Source: Anaerolineae bacterium (GTDB lineage Bacteria; Chloroflexota; Anaerolineae; B4-G1; SLSP01). Taken from it: a stretch of DNA of 37,772 nucleotides. Below, in pieces: positions 29,849-37,772 of the stretch. The stretch spans positions 1-37,772 of the forward strand of contig JALXBP010000133.1 in assembly GCA_026991395.1 (NCBI GenBank). Reading direction: 5' to 3'. A program made the position numbers and the translations under genes. Under the pieces are notes generated by a model that was not told the origin of the DNA, made no database searches, and was given only the letters and a program-made list of their open reading frames with translations. Numbering within the stretch: the stretch's first letter is position 1; each line of letters begins with the position of its first letter.

Positions 29849-31468
29849 ATGGCGCTGCTCTATGTCGATTACCGCGTCCGCCAGCGGGATCACCTCATCC
29901 GCCTCGTCAAGGCGATGGTCTCGCGGCTGAACCTGCGGGCCGTCCTGCGGATGACGTTGGAGAGCGCGGTGGAGATGCTCTACGGCAGCGTCGGGCTGAT
30001 CGCGCTGCGCCGCGAGGGCGATCTCTTCACCTTCGCCGCCACCTACGGCATCCCGCCCGCCGTCGCGGAATCCTTCCGCCCGATGCTGGAGGGGCTGAGC
30101 TATCGGGAGGGACGTTTGCACATCCCCCCGGAGTTGATGGAGGAGGTCGCCCGCGAGACGGGGCTGCTCCTCCGGCAGATGGTCGCCTTGCCGCTGCTCG
30201 TCGAGGGCAATCTGCTGGGGGTCATCTTCGTCTTCCGTCCGCACAGCGCGCGGTTCACGCCCGATGACGAGGCGATCCTGGCCGTCTTCGCCGACTATGC
30301 GGCCATCGCCGTCTACAATGCCCGTCTCTACGAGGCCGTTGACGCGGAGCGGATGCGGCTCAACGCGCTGCTGGAGGTGAGCGCCGACGGGATTATGATC
30401 TTGGGTCCCGACCTGCGCATCGAGCGCTTCAACGCCGCCTTCGCCGCGCTGACGGGGTGGCCTGCTGCGGAGGCCAGGGGCCGCCCCTACGATGAGGTCG
30501 TCGTCTGGGCGCGGCGCAGCGCCCCGCAGACGCTACGCCACCTGGTCGCGGAAGGCTGGCCGCCCGATCACCCCAGTCTCTACGTGGAAGGCGACCTGCG
30601 CCGACGGAACGGGAGCCTGGTCGGCGTCGGCATCACCTACGCCCCGCTCCTGACGCGGCGCGGCAAGCTGATGAACATCATCGCCGTGGCCCGCGACATC
30701 AGCCACTTCCGCGAGGCGGACAAGCTGAAGGAGACCTTCATCTCCATCGTCTCCCACGAGTTGAAGACGCCCGTCGCCATCATCCGCGGCTATGCCGAAA
30801 CGCTCCTCCGACCGGAGGCGCGGCGCGACGAGGCGCTGACGGAGGAGATGCTCTCCGCCATCGTCGAGGAGACCGACCGCCTGGCGCGGCTCGTGGACGA
30901 TCTGCTCGATGCCTCGCGGCTGCAGGCGGGGGGCATTCCCCTCAAGGAGATCGGCGAGGTCGATCTGGCGGCCATCGTCCGCCGTGTCGTCGAACGTTAC
31001 CGCCTGCAGACGGATCGGCACACGATCGTGCTCGACCTCCCCGCGGACTTCCCCATCATCCGCGGCGATGCGCGGCGGCTGGAGCAGGTCTTCGACAATC
31101 TCCTCTCCAACGCCATCAAGTACTCGCCGCGCGGGGGGACGATCGTCGTGCGCGGCGAAGTCCACCCCGCCGAAGTGCGCCTCTCCGTCAGCGATGAGGG
31201 CGTCGGCATCCCCCTCGAGGAGCAGGACAACATCTTCCAGCGTTTCTACCGCGTGGAAAGTCCGGAGACGCGGGCGGTGGCGGGTACCGGCTTGGGGCTT
31301 TACCTGACGCGGGCGATCGTCCAGGCCCACGGCGGGCGCATTTGGGTGAAGAGCGCGCCGGGCAAAGGCTCCACCTTCACCGTGGCCCTCCCCCTGCAGA
31401 CGGACCTGGCTCTCCGCGGCGGTCAGTCGGCGAAGAAGCCGCCGCCTATCACCTCCTCGCCGCGGTAG
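29849..31468 (+). CDS. GAF-PAS sensor histidine kinase
   Basis: FISIVSHELKTPVAIIRGYAE (H box), DNLLSNAIKYSPRGG (N box), VSDEGVGIPLEEQDNIFQRFYR and GTGLGLYLTRAIVQAHGGRIWVKSAPGKGSTFTVALP. Confidence 0.92.
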   Translation: MALLYVDYRVRQRDHLIRLVKAMVSRLNLRAVLRMTLESAVEMLYGSVGLIALRREGDLFTFAATYGIPPAVAESFRPMLEGLSYREGRLHIPPELMEEVARETGLLLRQMVALPLLVEGNLLGVIFVFRPHSARFTPDDEAILAVFADYAAIAVYNARLYEAVDAERMRLNALLEVSADGIMILGPDLRIERFNAAFAALTGWPAAEARGRPYDEVVVWARRSAPQTLRHLVAEGWPPDHPSLYVEGDLRRRNGSLVGVGITYAPLLTRRGKLMNIIAVARDISHFREADKLKETFISIVSHELKTPVAIIRGYAETLLRPEARRDEALTEEMLSAIVEETDRLARLVDDLLDASRLQAGGIPLKEIGEVDLAAIVRRVVERYRLQTDRHTIVLDLPADFPIIRGDARRLEQVFDNLLSNAIKYSPRGGTIVVRGEVHPAEVRLSVSDEGVGIPLEEQDNIFQRFYRVESPETRAVAGTGLGLYLTRAIVQAHGGRIWVKSAPGKGSTFTVALPLQTDLALRGGQSAKKPPPITSSPR

Positions 31469-32469
31469 AAGACGGCGGACTGCCCCGGCGCGAGGCCGCG
31501 TTGTGGCCGCGCGAAGCGCAGTCGCCAGCCCTCCTCCTCCCGTTCGAGCGTGGCCGCCGCCAGCGGCGCGCGGTGGCGAATGCGTACCTGCAGCGGTAGC
31601 GGCAGCGCTTCCGGCTCCCCGGCGGTGAAGACGACCGCTTCCAGCGCCGCCGTTTCGCGCAGGAGGGCGGAAAGCGGCCCCACGATCAGCGTGCGGGTTG
31701 CCTGCTCCATCCCCACGACGTAGAGCCGCTCGTCGCTGCCGACGCCCAGCCCTTTCCGCTGCCCGATGGTGTAGGCCGGCAGGCCGCGGTGCTCTCCCAC
31801 CACCCTGCCATCCGTGGTCACGATGGGGCCGGGGCGGAAGGCGTCCGGACGGCGGTCGCGCAGGAAGCGGCGGTAATCCCCCTCGGCGATGAAGCAGAGG
31901 TCCTGGCTGTCGCGCCGTTCGGCGACGAGGGGGAGGGCGCGGTCGCGGGCCAGCGCCCGCACCTCGGCCTTCGAGCGCATCTCCCCCAAGGGGAGCAGGA
32001 GGCGGCGCAGCATCGATTGGGGGAGGCGGTAGAGGAAGTAGCTCTGGTCGCGCCGCGGATCGCGGCCTGCGAGGAGGTGGACCGTGCCGTCCGCCTCCCG
32101 CCGGAGACGCGCGTAGTGGCCGGTCGCGATCCATTGGGCACCGAGGCGGTTGGCCTCGGCGAGCAGCGCCCACAGCTTGACCTGGGGGTTGCAGAGGACG
32201 CAGGGATTCGGCGTGCGTCCGGTCGAGTAGGCTTCGATGAACGGTTCGACGATGCGCTGCCGGAAGCGTTCGCTCAGATCGACGGTGCGCCAGGGCAGGT
32301 GGAGGTGCTCGGCCACGGCCTGTGCAGCGCTCAGCGCCGTCTCCGCCGCGGGTGGCCACAGGCGCAAGGTTACGGCGTAAGGCTCGTAACCGGCTTCGAG
32401 GAGGAGGACGGCGGCTACGGCGCTATCCACGCCGCCGCTCAGCCCGAGCACGACGCGGGGCTTCGTCAT
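31423..32469 (-). CDS. mnmA: tRNA-specific 2-thiouridylase MnmA
   Basis: MTKPRVVLGLSGGVDSAVAAVLLLEAGYEPYAVTLRLW (PP-loop), GRTPNPCVLCNPQVKLWALL, ATGHYARL, DQSYFLYRLPQ, SQDLCFIAEGDYRRFL, YTIGQRKGLGVG. Confidence 0.93.
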   Translation of the reverse strand: MTKPRVVLGLSGGVDSAVAAVLLLEAGYEPYAVTLRLWPPAAETALSAAQAVAEHLHLPWRTVDLSERFRQRIVEPFIEAYSTGRTPNPCVLCNPQVKLWALLAEANRLGAQWIATGHYARLRREADGTVHLLAGRDPRRDQSYFLYRLPQSMLRRLLLPLGEMRSKAEVRALARDRALPLVAERRDSQDLCFIAEGDYRRFLRDRRPDAFRPGPIVTTDGRVVGEHRGLPAYTIGQRKGLGVGSDERLYVVGMEQATRTLIVGPLSALLRETAALEAVVFTAGEPEALPLPLQVRIRHRAPLAAATLEREEEGWRLRFARPQRGLAPGQSAVFYRGEEVIGGGFFAD

Positions 32470-33131
32470 CGGGAGGCTGCTGTCGGCTCCGTCTCTTCGC
32501 GCCGCGAGAGGCGGTAGCCGTACCGTCGGCGTGTTTCCAGCACGAAGGGCGCTTCCAGCTTGCGCAGGGCGCGGCGGAGCCAGTGGATGTGGACATCCAT
32601 CGTGCGCGTGTTGCCCACATAATCGGTCCCCCACACTTCCTGCATCAGCCAGGCGCGCTGCAGAAGCCGCTCCGGCGCGCGGAGGAAGGCGGCCATCAAA
32701 GCCGCCTGCCGCGGGGTGAGGCGGACTTCGCGCCCGTCCCAGCACAGCGTGTGCGAGGTCATTCCCAGGCAGAGGCCCTCCCATCGGAGGACGTAAGCGT
32801 CGTGCGGCGAAAAGAGCCTCGTGAGCACGTTGCGCAGACGCCGCGGCGTCAGCGGGGGGGCGAGCATCTCATCGGGGGGCGGATGGCCGTCCGCTTCCCC
32901 CTTCCTGCCGAGGAGGTAGAGCAGGAGTACGTCGGGCCAGCGGGCGCGGCTGTCTTCGACGAAGCGGTGGAGATCGAAGCGGACGGAGGGCAGGTGCAGG
33001 ATGATCAGGTCGGGGGGGCGGTCTTGCATCAACGCCTCGCGGCGTCCACGGGCGACGTGGACGTCGTAATCGTCCTGCAGAGCCGACAGCAGGGTCCTTT
33101 CCGGCGTGCGTCGGCGGATGACGAAGAGCAC
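32466..33131 (-). CDS. OmpR-family-like winged-helix regulator with degenerate receiver domain
   Basis: C-terminal wHTH LTPRQAALMAAFLRAPERLLQRAWLMQEVWGTDYVGNTRTMDVHIHWLRRALRKLEAPFVLETRRRYGYRLSR. GTG start at 33131 preferred (GGAG 9 nt upstream); TTG 33146 and ATG 33194 are alternatives. Confidence 0.75.
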   Translation of the reverse strand: MLFVIRRRTPERTLLSALQDDYDVHVARGRREALMQDRPPDLIILHLPSVRFDLHRFVEDSRARWPDVLLLYLLGRKGEADGHPPPDEMLAPPLTPRRLRNVLTRLFSPHDAYVLRWEGLCLGMTSHTLCWDGREVRLTPRQAALMAAFLRAPERLLQRAWLMQEVWGTDYVGNTRTMDVHIHWLRRALRKLEAPFVLETRRRYGYRLSRREETEPTAASR

Positions 33132-33192
33132 TTGACGGCGCTCCAACCCCTCCCCCCCGAATGAAGTCGGACCGACAACGGGCCGCCTTCCC

Positions 33193-33220: not shown

Positions 33221-33241
33221 GGAGGGGAGATGGCGTGGCGC

Positions 33242-33270
33242 TTGACAACCTTATGAAGGCGGGCTATATT
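33242..33270 (+). promoter_or_regulatory. Consensus promoter reading into the cassette array (Pc-like position)
   Basis: TTGACA - 17 nt - TATATT. Confidence 0.65.
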
Positions 33271-33431
33271 TTACTTGGGGCGTGGTGCAAGGCAGGAATT
33301 TTCCCTTGTCGAGGGCCATACGTGGCGAGGGGGTGGCCTGAATGCAGCGGACAGGTCGTCTGTGGGGCTGAAGAGGGGGAAGGCAGTAGTTGTGCTGTGT
33401 GATGGTGGATCAGATTTGCCTCTAATTATAA

Positions 33432-33438
33432 GTTAGGC
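33432..33438 (+). other. Recombination core site GTTAGGC at the left boundary of cassette 1
   Basis: GTTAGGC is the exact reverse complement of the GCCTAAC starting attC1 (34363-34369), as expected for the two ends of one cassette. Confidence 0.6.
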
Positions 33439-33457
33439 GAGCAAGAGGAATGCAAAA

Positions 33458-34357
33458 GTGACCGTATACGAGCTTTACCACGATGAATCTATGGAAAATG
33501 GATACTGGCATGGCATCTTACTGGTTCCGGCGGAGAAAAAGCCATTATTGCTTGAATACCTTGGGAAAGCGCGCCATAATACTGGTTATCGTGACCCCTT
33601 GGGCATAAAGAAGGTGAAGAGAAATAACCGAGTTTTTGATTGTGCTTCATCATGGGTGCAACTTGGGCTGGGTTTCATGCGCTCTCGTGCTAAAACGCAG
33701 CCATTTTCCGTGTCACTTGGAAAACAAGGGAGGCAACGAATTCTTATCAACTTGCCGCAAGGCGCAATAGGAACTAAATTTATATTGTTTCGGGAACGTG
33801 ATAACCATAAAGCAATGACAGGCTACCCTGATAGGGCGAGTAAGATTGAGACAACATTCCGTTTTGGAATTAAAGGTGGTTTGCACTTCTTGGGGTCGGA
33901 CGAGCAACCTATTCACATTGAGAAAATGCACTTTGATGGTCACAAGCATCATCTCAGGCATTTGGACCGCAATCGCATTGTAGGACGATTGCAGGGGTTA
34001 CGAAGATATTGTAGTATCTCGTCACGACCGGATATTATTGATGATAGATCGTCGGATCACAGGGCAGAAGACGCGCAAAGTTATGAGGATTGTCAGTTGT
34101 TGCAATTGACGGACCTGTTGATAGGGAGTTTCAGGACTGCATTAGGGGTTGTAACTAGAGATATTCACAAAGAGTTGGCTCGACTACCTAAAGAATTAAT
34201 CTTAGACTACCAAAAGGGCTATGCCAGGATGAGAAACAGTAGGTGGTTCAGTTCCTTTTGGTTGAGTGAGTGTTTCCTTCAAAGCGATGGATGGCACTTC
34301 CAAACCTTGGAATTTGTTGAGGGCGATACAGATGTGAAACAATTATCTTTGCTGTAA
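33458..34357 (+). CDS. Cassette 1: DUF3800-like protein
   Basis: N-terminal YELYHDESMENGYWHGILLVP and C-terminal YEDCQLLQLTDLLIGSFRTALG resemble DUF3800; AT-rich relative to the flank. Confidence 0.55.
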   Translation: MTVYELYHDESMENGYWHGILLVPAEKKPLLLEYLGKARHNTGYRDPLGIKKVKRNNRVFDCASSWVQLGLGFMRSRAKTQPFSVSLGKQGRQRILINLPQGAIGTKFILFRERDNHKAMTGYPDRASKIETTFRFGIKGGLHFLGSDEQPIHIEKMHFDGHKHHLRHLDRNRIVGRLQGLRRYCSISSRPDIIDDRSSDHRAEDAQSYEDCQLLQLTDLLIGSFRTALGVVTRDIHKELARLPKELILDYQKGYARMRNSRWFSSFWLSECFLQSDGWHFQTLEFVEGDTDVKQLSLL

Positions 34358-34362
34358 TACTT

Positions 34363-34489
34363 GCCTAACCACGGCTTCGCCTGACCCGCCTCCAGCGGCG
34401 GGTAAGCGACACGAAATTTGCCCGCTGTGATTCTAGTCGAAGTTTCTCAGATTGCCCGTTCCGGCGGGCAGGAGAGCCCAGCGTTAAGT
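34363..34489 (+). repeat. attC-like site 1
   Basis: R'' GCCTAAC ... R' GTTAAGT. TAACcacGGCTtcgCCTGACCCGCC versus reverse complement of the 3' arm TAACGCTGGGCTCTCCTGCCCGCC: strong imperfect palindrome with an extrahelical A. Confidence 0.75.
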
Positions 34490-34523
34490 ATTTGGAAAAT
34501 TTCCTTCCGCAGGAGGTCGACTT

Positions 34524-34952
34524 ATGAGTGATGTTAAGGTGTATATCTCAGGAGCATTGACCAATGCTCCGAACCTAAAAGAACTACGTTCTTTCTATGA
34601 AGATATTGGTGCACTTTGTCGCGAACTTGCTATGGAACCTTATCTGCCTCACAAGTTTTCAGACCCGGAGCTCAACCCTGATCTTTCTCCAAGGCAGGTT
34701 TATGAGCAGGACAAGAAGCGTGTCCTCAGCTCAGATCTGGTGATTGCCTATGTAGGGGTCCCTTCGCTTGGTGTCGGGATGGAAATAGCCTATGCTGATG
34801 AGCACGACATTCCAGTGATTTTGGTTTACCCTGAAGGCGCCCGTGTATCAAGATTGGTGAGGGGTCTTCCCTCACGTATACTGATAGACGAAGTGCGATT
34901 TACCTCTAAGGAAGAAGCGCTATCACAGATCAGGAAAATTCTTACCGGGTAG
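34524..34952 (+). CDS. Cassette 2, gene 1: nucleoside 2-deoxyribosyltransferase-like protein
   Basis: MSDVKVYISGALT...VYEQDKKRVLSSDLVIAYVGVPSLGVGMEIAYADEHDIPVILVYPEG, with a candidate catalytic Glu in GMEIAYA; AGGAGG RBS. Confidence 0.7.
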   Translation: MSDVKVYISGALTNAPNLKELRSFYEDIGALCRELAMEPYLPHKFSDPELNPDLSPRQVYEQDKKRVLSSDLVIAYVGVPSLGVGMEIAYADEHDIPVILVYPEGARVSRLVRGLPSRILIDEVRFTSKEEALSQIRKILTG

Positions 34953-35154
34953 TTTATTTGAAGAGTGGAATTGAAGAAGAAGATGCGGAGCGTGTGATAG
35001 AGTGTTGTGCTGGCTTCATCAACAGGGTGTAATTCCCTAGCGAGTTTATGTTGGAGTATGAAAAACAGGTGATTTGATGTGATCCTCAGTACCAGTTTAT
35101 ATCGAGTATCAGGGGTAATCGTTATCTATGCGTTTTAAAAGAGGAGCATAGACT

Positions 35155-35904
35155 ATGCAAGAGGAAAACTACCCTTCGATTCTTATAGACACCCAGATAG
35201 TGCAAGCGGTTCGTGATGGAGAGTTACAAATAGTGGATCCTGATGGCCGCCCATTAATTGATGCTGGTACCGGAACAAGATCTGCAGATTCAGGATTAGA
35301 TGCGCATGGTTATGTGCTACATCTCAGGAATCTATATAGCTGGCGTGAAGGGAAGTGGATTTCTTTAAAAGGTGGGCGCTCATATGTCTTGCGCCCGGAC
35401 GAGTTTATTATCGCAGAGACATATGAAAAGCTTTCTTTGATGCGAAATGTTTGTGCTACTATTCATGCCCTAGCTCGTTTAACTTTGCAGGGGATTTCCC
35501 ATATTTCTACAACAGTCCATCCTGGTTGGGGGGCGTCTTCCCCTGAAGTTTTGCGGATAGGAGTTCGGAACATGGCACCTTGGCCTATAACTCTGCGAGA
35601 TAAACAACGAATTGCTCGTATGCTTCTCTGTAGAAGTTCTATCCCTGCTCAATTGGTTTCTGCTCCGACGGCGAAGGATATTTTTCAGTATATGGACACA
35701 ATTATTGGGGAGTATCAACGTATACGCAATAGGCAGAGTAAAGCTGTAAAAGTTTTGCTTCTGCTTGTAGGTACGTTCTTTGTAATTGTAGTTGCCTCCT
35801 TGCTCCCTGGTAATCAATCCCCGATTTTTGATTGGCTCAAAGCGTTAGGGGCGGCGCTTATTGGATTATGGGCAGCGTATATGTTTAGGATGATGGGATT
35901 GTGA
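35155..35904 (+). CDS. Cassette 2, gene 2: dCTP deaminase/dUTPase-fold protein with two C-terminal TM helices
   Basis: ILIDTQIVQAVRDGELQIVDPDGRPL...SGLDAHGYVLHL...YVLRPDEFIIAETYEKLSL...ALARLTLQGISHISTTVHPGWGASSPEVLRIGVRNMAPWPITLRDKQRIARMLL, then VKVLLLLVGTFFVIVVASLLP and FDWLKALGAALIGLWAAYMF. Confidence 0.7.
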   Translation: MQEENYPSILIDTQIVQAVRDGELQIVDPDGRPLIDAGTGTRSADSGLDAHGYVLHLRNLYSWREGKWISLKGGRSYVLRPDEFIIAETYEKLSLMRNVCATIHALARLTLQGISHISTTVHPGWGASSPEVLRIGVRNMAPWPITLRDKQRIARMLLCRSSIPAQLVSAPTAKDIFQYMDTIIGEYQRIRNRQSKAVKVLLLLVGTFFVIVVASLLPGNQSPIFDWLKALGAALIGLWAAYMFRMMGL

Positions 35905-35909
35905 TAAGT

Positions 35910-36029
35910 GTCTAACCTAGCGTACATCGGACACGGCTTCGCGGTGGGGCAACGTTGGCGGTTTTGAGGCGATATAGCGTCGCCCCTCTTGGGTAAACTC
36001 GCCGCTGCCGTTAACATCTTTCGTTGGGC
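35910..36029 (+). repeat. attC-like site 2
   Basis: R'' GTCTAAC ... R' GTTGGGC; inner arms CGGACACGGCTTCGCGG / CTCGCCGCTGCCG and GGGGC/GCCCC pair imperfectly. Confidence 0.7.
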
Positions 36030-36054
36030 TAATTAACCAAGGGAGAGCGTAGAA

Positions 36055-37002
36055 ATGAACGGCGAAGTGGCTCAGATAGTTGCCCTAGTAGCGCACGGGA
36101 ATCTATTTCTGAGTGGCAAGGATGTTGACCTTTCCACAAATTCCACACTTCAGTACATTTCCTCGATCAGGTTCGTTCGCTATGAAAGCAGGCAGAACAC
36201 ACAAGGCGTGGAAGTAGCCAGCAGTGTTTCCGAGTGGTTTGCTTTTTTGCGCTCGGCAAAAGCAACTCGTTTGTGGCATGTTGATTTTTACCACCAAAGG
36301 CAGGATATTCCGACACATATCGCCAGTGCTTTTTCGGGGGGTGTTTCAGCAGCCATTCAAGTCGATTTGCCCGAGGGTTTTGAACTATGGTTTCCAAAAT
36401 GGAAAACAACGGGACTTATCAATGCCGGAAGAAAAAGTGTAAAACAGGAGAGAGAACATCACCACAAGGCAACTTTGCAAAAGCTATCGTTACTTCTGTG
36501 CAGGGTTTTTCGATGCCGCGGGTCCCGCAACCACGCCTCCCCTGCAGTATCGAAAAGCAAGGGGGAGGCAGACTTTGAAGACAGATCCAAGCCCTGGTCT
36601 GTAGAATATCGTGGTTTTATGTCTCCAGATTCTTGTGCTTTACCCATGCAAGAGATGCGTGCGGTCAAGGAGAGGCTCAGGGAGGCCGTCTCGCGGGCTA
36701 AAGAGTTCGCGCAAGGAACGCACTGGACGAAAGATTTTACGAGGTCGTTGGAAGCATTAGAATCTCCTGCGCCTGTATTCCCCTTCCCGGATATGCTTCC
36801 TTCTTCCGGTTTTCCTTTGGAAGCGCGTCAATTGCTGGCTGCGGCTGCACAGGCCTATGTCTTTGGCGGTATGGGTTCCTGGAATGATCTGAGCTTGCCA
36901 AATGATCCGGACATCATCGAGGAATACGAAGAAATTAGCACGGAGCTTTACGAAGCCATCCAATTTGCTATCCTAATGGCGTCCAATGCCTTTGCGGCTT
37001 GA
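36055..37002 (+). CDS. Cassette 3: hypothetical protein, 315 aa
   Basis: ORF filling the space between attC2 and attC3; GGGAGA upstream of ATG; no family recognised. Confidence 0.55.
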   Translation: MNGEVAQIVALVAHGNLFLSGKDVDLSTNSTLQYISSIRFVRYESRQNTQGVEVASSVSEWFAFLRSAKATRLWHVDFYHQRQDIPTHIASAFSGGVSAAIQVDLPEGFELWFPKWKTTGLINAGRKSVKQEREHHHKATLQKLSLLLCRVFRCRGSRNHASPAVSKSKGEADFEDRSKPWSVEYRGFMSPDSCALPMQEMRAVKERLREAVSRAKEFAQGTHWTKDFTRSLEALESPAPVFPFPDMLPSSGFPLEARQLLAAAAQAYVFGGMGSWNDLSLPNDPDIIEEYEEISTELYEAIQFAILMASNAFAA

Positions 37003-37014
37003 GCGTTCGAATCA

Positions 37015-37118
37015 GCCCAGCACCGGTCGCAGCGGACAGCAGCTTCGCCAATCGCGAGAGCGGGCGCGAGAGGGACAGAGTGATTGTGCGGTCGCTGCTG
37101 CTGAGCTACACGTTGGAG
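37015..37118 (+). repeat. attC-like site 3
   Basis: R'' GCCCAGC ... R' GTTGGAG; GCAGCGGACAGCAGC versus GGTCGCTGCTGCTGAGC arms. R'' nearly matches the reverse complement of the cassette-3 start (GTTGGGC). Confidence 0.6.
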
Positions 37119-37168
37119 TAGAAGGAAAATGATCTTTGTAGACCATAGAGAGTAGGAGGGATGAGCGC

Positions 37169-37408
37169 ATGGAGAGGATCTGTCCCGGATGTAGAGGCAA
37201 AGGAGTCATCGAATGTCCTGTGTGTGGTGGGAGTGGCGTTGTTGTGAAGCGGCGGGGTGTGGTGGGGGAGATAGGGTTGAGGTCATTAAGGGAAGAGTGT
37301 CACACCTGTCAAGGAACGGGCAAGTTGCTGTGCGAGATGTGCGGGGGTGTGGGGAAGATCTTGGTGAGGGAGTTGGATTCGAGGAAGCGGAAGAGAGGGG
37401 GATTCTGA
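37169..37408 (+). CDS. Cassette 4: stand-alone DnaJ-type cysteine-rich zinc-finger protein
   Basis: Four CxxCxGxG motifs: CPGCRGKG, CPVCGGSG, CHTCQGTG, CEMCGGVG, in 79 aa. Confidence 0.75.
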   Translation: MERICPGCRGKGVIECPVCGGSGVVVKRRGVVGEIGLRSLREECHTCQGTGKLLCEMCGGVGKILVRELDSRKRKRGGF

Positions 37409-37494
37409 ATCGAGACCAAAGGGTGGGTTGAGGAAGAGTTGAGAGTTGAGCTGCACCAGGGGCGCAGAGAATGCGTGAGGGAAATGCGCATCTC

Positions 37495-37620
37495 GCCTAA
37501 CGGTTCACTTGAGCGGACTGGGCTATCGTGTGGGTTGCAAGGAGGATTGGGGCCGCTATTGGAACTCTGAGCATGGGGGAACCCGGGACCGATCCGCCAC
37601 TCAGCTTGATGTCGTTCGGT
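37495..37620 (+). repeat. attC-like site 4
   Basis: R'' GCCTAAC ... R' GTTCGGT (one deviation from GTTRRRY); CCTAACGGTTCACTTGAGCGGA versus reverse complement of the 3' arm CCGAACGACATCAAGCTGAGTGGCGGA. Confidence 0.5.
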
Positions 37621-37657
37621 GGCTGTCTATGAGAGGATGCTGAAGGATAACCCAATT

Positions 37658-37772
37658 ATGTCCAACGTACAGGCGTTCTATGACCAGAACCCGGAGGCAG
37701 AATGGACGCGCCTTGATCGTCACAGAACTGAGTTTGCGGTAACTTTGCGGGCGTTGAGGGAGTTTCTGCCCA
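37658..37772 (+). CDS. Cassette 5: N-terminal part of a probable SAM-dependent methyltransferase, truncated by the window
   Basis: MSNVQAFYDQNPEAEWTRLDRHRTEFAVTLRALREFLP; resembles N-termini of class I SAM methyltransferases. Confidence 0.55.
   Translation, partial: MSNVQAFYDQNPEAEWTRLDRHRTEFAVTLRALREFLP

Follow-up and report, generated by a model that had tools for sequence, protein, structure and literature searches.

What occupies the right end of this contig, where the composition of the DNA changes and small genes are separated by elements resembling attC sites, with no integrase gene beside them? Integrons are described as one platform, in which a single attI site lies beside a single integrase gene. 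The window, i.e., the whole stretch of DNA analysed, is an entire contig of 37,772 nucleotides (C133) from a 2.46-Mb assembly of 153 contigs, and its right end is the end of the contig. The sharp composition boundary claimed in the earlier note is real: GC content falls from 0.70 to 0.45–0.52 at about 33.2 kb, and from there to the contig end all open reading frames (ORFs) lie on one strand. The left border is a host response-regulator-like gene on the minus strand (32466..33191), which belongs to the GC-rich chromosomal flank (GC 0.70) and next to which stands mnmA (31423-32469). Orthologues of this border gene with 43-48% identity were found in genomes of the same family, and the cassette genes of the window were absent from the flanks of about 1.5 kb around them. 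A continuation of the window's right end was not found in any other contig of the bin, and an Rfam search gave no match.

To the right of this boundary, the window carries an integron cassette array, as can be seen from its attC cores, paired arms, extrahelical base and same-strand ORFs. The sites, all on the plus strand, are attC1 (34363-34489, 127 bp), attC2 (35910-36029, 120 bp), attC3 (37015-37118, 104 bp) and attC4 (37495-37620, 126 bp), the R' box of the last, GTTCGGT, being one base off GTTRRRY. Training sites were first gathered from contigs of class relatives with intact intI, and the arms of the relatives' attC sites covary strongly (116 cells changed on both sides versus 38.5 in shuffles). 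Model R1, made of these arms with the loops removed, did not separate the long-loop sites of the window from background and was rebuilt as a full-length covariance model, R3, from nine relatives' sites and nine from other contigs of the same genome, none of them from the window. The search of the 37.8-kb window with R3, with filters off, gave 34 matches, the top four being exactly the four elements proposed earlier between same-strand genes (E from 1e-9 to 5e-4) and the fifth having E=1.0; the individual values, rough because of a short calibration, are 1.4e-9, 4.6e-9, 5.4e-4 and 8.6e-5 for attC1 to attC4, respectively. A PSSM/duplex scanner trained on relatives only also placed three sites at the top within the array; among 60 shuffles, one fell in the range of the sites, and one false positive in host DNA had an equal score (33.2), and this scanner is regarded as supportive only.

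All four sites share with the attC sites of relatives the motif R''-16/17 nt-GAC and an extrahelical A, in agreement with the extrahelical base noticed earlier. The folding of attC hairpins holds for a part of the sites: the arms of attC1 (duplex −18.8) and attC3 pair better than all of about 3000 random pairs of the same length, whereas those of attC2 and attC4 reach only the 3–4% level against about 3000 random pairs. When the bottom strands were folded without constraints, side hairpins were preferred at three of the four sites. The loop of attC2 resembles, by inspection, that of an attC at C81:1706. The rule that a cassette begins with the complement of the box opening its own attC, which had been described as exact for cassette 1 and nearly satisfied by cassette 3, is confirmed in both cases (GTTAGGC/GCCTAAC, 7/7; GTTGGGC/GCCCAGC, 6/7), and cassettes 2 and 4 match at only about 4/7. 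The poor match of these two cassettes, together with the weak folding of attC2 and attC4, may mean that the inner array has decayed; the pattern fits newest-first insertion followed by decay further in, four sites being no proven trend.

The cassette genes all read on the plus strand. The ORF of cassette 1 (33458..34357, 299 aa) has no family match, and that of cassette 3 (36055..37002, 315 aa) matches no family above the cut-off; relatives of both were absent from the plasmids searched, and relatives of the former also from the viral contigs searched. Cassette 2 carries a nucleoside 2-deoxyribosyltransferase-like ORF (34524..34952, 142 aa; PF05014, 29.7 bits at a cut-off of 28.8) and a dCTP-deaminase-like ORF with a hydrophobic C-terminus (35155..35904, 249 aa; PF22769, E=9.5e-11; E~1e-3 against dCTP deaminases of the PDB). 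Cassette 4 (37169..37408, 79 aa) resembles a DnaJ-type CxxCxGxG zinc ribbon, its match to PF00684 (E=2.3e-7) being just below the cut-off, and the ORF starting in cassette 5 (37619..37772) is interrupted by the contig end.

At the head of the array, a predicted sigma-70-type, Pc-like promoter, TTGACA-17-TATATT (33242..33270, plus strand), agrees with the consensus at 11 of 12 positions, is the best in the region and reads into the array, the overall number of promoter-like matches being not above that in shuffles. Between it and cassette 1 extends a leader of about 190 bp (33240..33432, plus strand), repeated elsewhere in the genome, and at the end of the leader lies an attI-like core, TCTAATTATAA^GTTAGGC (33421..33438, plus strand), with a probable insertion point after G33432. 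The published cores of attI1 and attI2, AAACAAAGTTRRRY and AATAAAATGTTRRRY, have the same form (PMC12901181). The same layout occurs near intI in the relatives G020, G028, G032 and G100 and, one base shorter, in G171; by its core sequence, a putative attI thus stands at the head of the array. An imperfect inverted repeat of the leader (about 33381-33405) is conserved in sequence; as a conserved RNA structure the hairpin is not supported, since no compensatory changes were found, and the repeat may rather be protein-binding. Because matching cores lie near intact intI genes in relatives and a weaker homologue lies near an intI remnant, the leader is best read, from these sequence comparisons, as the attI/Pc region of an integron lacking its integrase gene.

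DNA searches, model searches and reading of contigs revealed nine leader loci in the genome: one each on C133, C50, C85, C93 and C102, two on C45 (1.8-2.0 kb and the 22.5-kb end; C45a and C45b) and two on C84 (near 51 kb and 39 kb; C84a and C84b). Two more were found in the sister genus G006, and beyond it only one match appeared among 396 genomes of the class, a weak one (E=2.8e-4) in G176 of another family, where the leader homologue and an N-terminal remnant of intI are about 170 bp apart; the leader is thereby akin to an intI-adjacent region. The copies, of about 145–210 bp, retain the predicted promoter and mostly head short low-GC cassette arrays within GC-rich host DNA. The attI core is kept at five of the nine (C133, C50, both C45 copies and, shortened, C84a) and lost at C93, C102, C84b and C85; attC sites follow the leaders at C133, C45a, C45b, C50, C84a, C85 and C102, and the C45a array runs on into C81 through an exact overlap of 127 bp. 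Most array contigs share the tetranucleotide signature of the host, with scores of 0.82–0.91 against C133; C84 and C93 score 0.65 and 0.70, and other genera 0.29–0.47. Identity between copies is 0.58 upstream of the promoter (random 0.60) and 0.76 beside attI, where the mean over the attI-proximal 75 bp across the two genera exceeds that of the rest of the leader. Such a peak at attI, with a random level before the promoter, is expected if only the promoter and attI were retained.

Two sources of the dispersed leaders were considered and rejected. Inspection of the 5' edges of the leaders revealed no evident core site or common flank, which does not suit dispersal by the integrase itself, and tRNA genes lie upstream of the C93 copy and near none of the other copies searched, so that a tRNA/rRNA promoter is not the likely source.

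Several features of the other arrays were recorded in passing. An ORF-less sequence of about 98 bp, 97–99% identical between copies, lies beside attC sites on several contigs of this genome, at L067:14974-15071, L069:17456-17553, L069:19478-19575 and L089:13943-14021 and is possibly an ORF-less cassette or a common attC remnant. One cassette ORF (L089:12690-13814; G000:C102, 45.7-46.8 kb) has an internal duplication and a run of N, and this cassette is incompletely resolved. The cargo also includes Abi_C/AbiJ-like, CHAT-domain and VRR-NUC proteins and a NACHT/NB-ARC-like ATPase with TPR; the genes at L088:10274-10966, L069:17700-19346, L067:11425-13862 and L069:579-1799 possibly encode relatives of phage-defence or abortive-infection proteins.

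Where, then, is the integrase? The earlier note saw none in view, and none scored above the TIGR02249 cut-off for IntI in the 153 contigs, where the matches were Xer-type recombinases and further attC arrays were found on other contigs. One of the recombinases (L003:916-1731; G000:C105; 271 aa) is a Xer-like tyrosine recombinase that resembles IntI along most of its length and lacks the IntI-specific insertion. No intI remnants were detected in the array contigs searched by tblastn with IntI of four relatives, and nowhere in the assembly was intI found beside an array, as in a complete integron. In the class, 106 of 396 genomes have an IntI above the curated cut-off, among them G014 and G020, which belong to the same family, and attC sites occur in 36 of the 48 genomes of the order. 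The relative G028 has an intact intI on one contig, degraded intI fragments on others (L103:1530-1815; L108:2342-2613) and at least eight contigs with attC sites, i.e., dispersed integron relics are present there too.

Several arrays stop at contig ends, and an intI gene may be missing from the assembly or left unbinned. It is possible, in our tentative estimate, that one or more ordinary complete integrons exist here, with intI upstream of one leader (for example, C45b) but dropped during assembly or binning; the remaining leaders would be side copies or relics of it. The C45b leader is interrupted by the contig end, a 197-bp repeat common to C45b and C45a would break the assembly, and the continuation of the window is missing from the bin; contigs of cassette DNA, with a composition unlike that of the host, are easily left unbinned, and the fragmentation of metagenome-assembled genomes is known to raise CALIN counts (PMC9024848, PMC9668308). 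However, at the eight leaders with upstream sequence, host DNA lies beyond the promoter and intI was not found; in either case, most platforms are thus without a linked integrase.

A comparable, rather limited likelihood is given to the arrays being dead relics, in which a once active integron had its attI/Pc region copied and lost its intI, and the arrays are static and kept for their cargo and promoter only. Consistent with this are the lack of IntI in both genera carrying the leader, the loss of the attI core from several leaders, the uneven quality of attC sites and the intI remnant in G176; stepwise inactivation of integrons has been described in Xanthomonas (PMC12444791). Against it, the conservation (0.76) of the attI-proximal 75 bp and the perfect R-box pair of cassette 1 suggest recent action of an integrase. 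A third possibility is that an integrase in trans inserted the cassettes into ordinary attG sites of the chromosome, with no platform at all. Insertion at attG is known as a process and Xanthomonas CALINs do lie at several chromosomal loci (PMC12444791, PMC12901181), but it is highly improbable here, for the arrays are preceded by a homologous leader of about 145–210 bp, five times with an attI-like core, and not by unrelated host sequence.

In our opinion, the array is quite probably one of several platforms in this genome, each with its own promoter and attI-like head and none with an integrase gene found beside it. This platform reading is supported by four independently modelled attC sites, the attI-like core, the nine plus two leader loci and the common occurrence of IntI in the class; its limits are the weak match in G176, the four leaders without an attI core and the inclusion of same-genome attC sites in the training of R3. 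It thus seems that the bacterium maintains a number of separate platforms for gene capture and not a single one. The integrase would act in trans, either as an enzyme that the lineage possessed until recently or as one encoded on an unassembled or unbinned contig; circular cassettes would be inserted at the point following G33432 by recombination between attI and attC, the newest first, and the promoter at 33242 would transcribe the leader and the first cassettes. Recombination of the sites is presumed, no integrase being known for them. A bolder version, a distributed integron in which a lineage of two genera maintains many scattered attI and promoter platforms served by a single unlinked integrase in trans, appears unlikely; if true, it would allow several cassettes to be expressed in the first position at once.

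About nine attI/promoter leaders without a linked integrase would change the scaling of cassette capture and expression per genome and would offer a natural case for trans action of IntI. The defence-like cargo fits the attention now paid to integrons as reservoirs of defence genes, and IntI in 106 of 396 class genomes means that integrons are common in this little-studied group. As to the earlier remark that such arrays are not well documented in Chloroflexota, if the host belongs there, reviews already list the phylum among integron bearers (PMC8618304, PMC9668308). The cassette array itself is of a known kind, and CALINs are well known and considered mobilisable in trans (PMC9668308, PMC12444791); a limited search of the open-access literature gave no account of arrays that lack an integrase and are headed by a repeated attI/promoter leader, and this dispersed arrangement appears to be undescribed there.

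Compared with known systems, the array resembles a sedentary chromosomal integron (intI-attI-Pc-cassette array) in its attC sites, same-strand cassettes and predicted promoter with an attI-like head, but differs in the absence of a linked intI here and in that about nine loci carry the head, followed each time by a short array. With CALINs, defined as at least two attC sites without intI (IntegronFinder, PMC9024848; PMC9668308), it shares four attC sites and no IntI; the earlier label of CALIN-like is correct to this extent and incomplete in that the array stands at one of the nine leader loci and has at its head a conserved promoter leader and an attI-like core, with several copies per genome. 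The dispersed CALINs of Xanthomonas are alike in having clusters of cassettes that are separate from intI and occupy several places on the chromosome, but the available part of that report (PMC12444791) mentions no repeated attI/promoter leader, and an intI or ilvD platform is usually recognisable there. Finally, the Delta-attI-type cassettes of mobile integrons (PMC12901181) also have attI away from intI and still recombine, but in them attI fragments replace the attC downstream of a cassette gene, whereas here the attI-like core and the predicted promoter head whole arrays.
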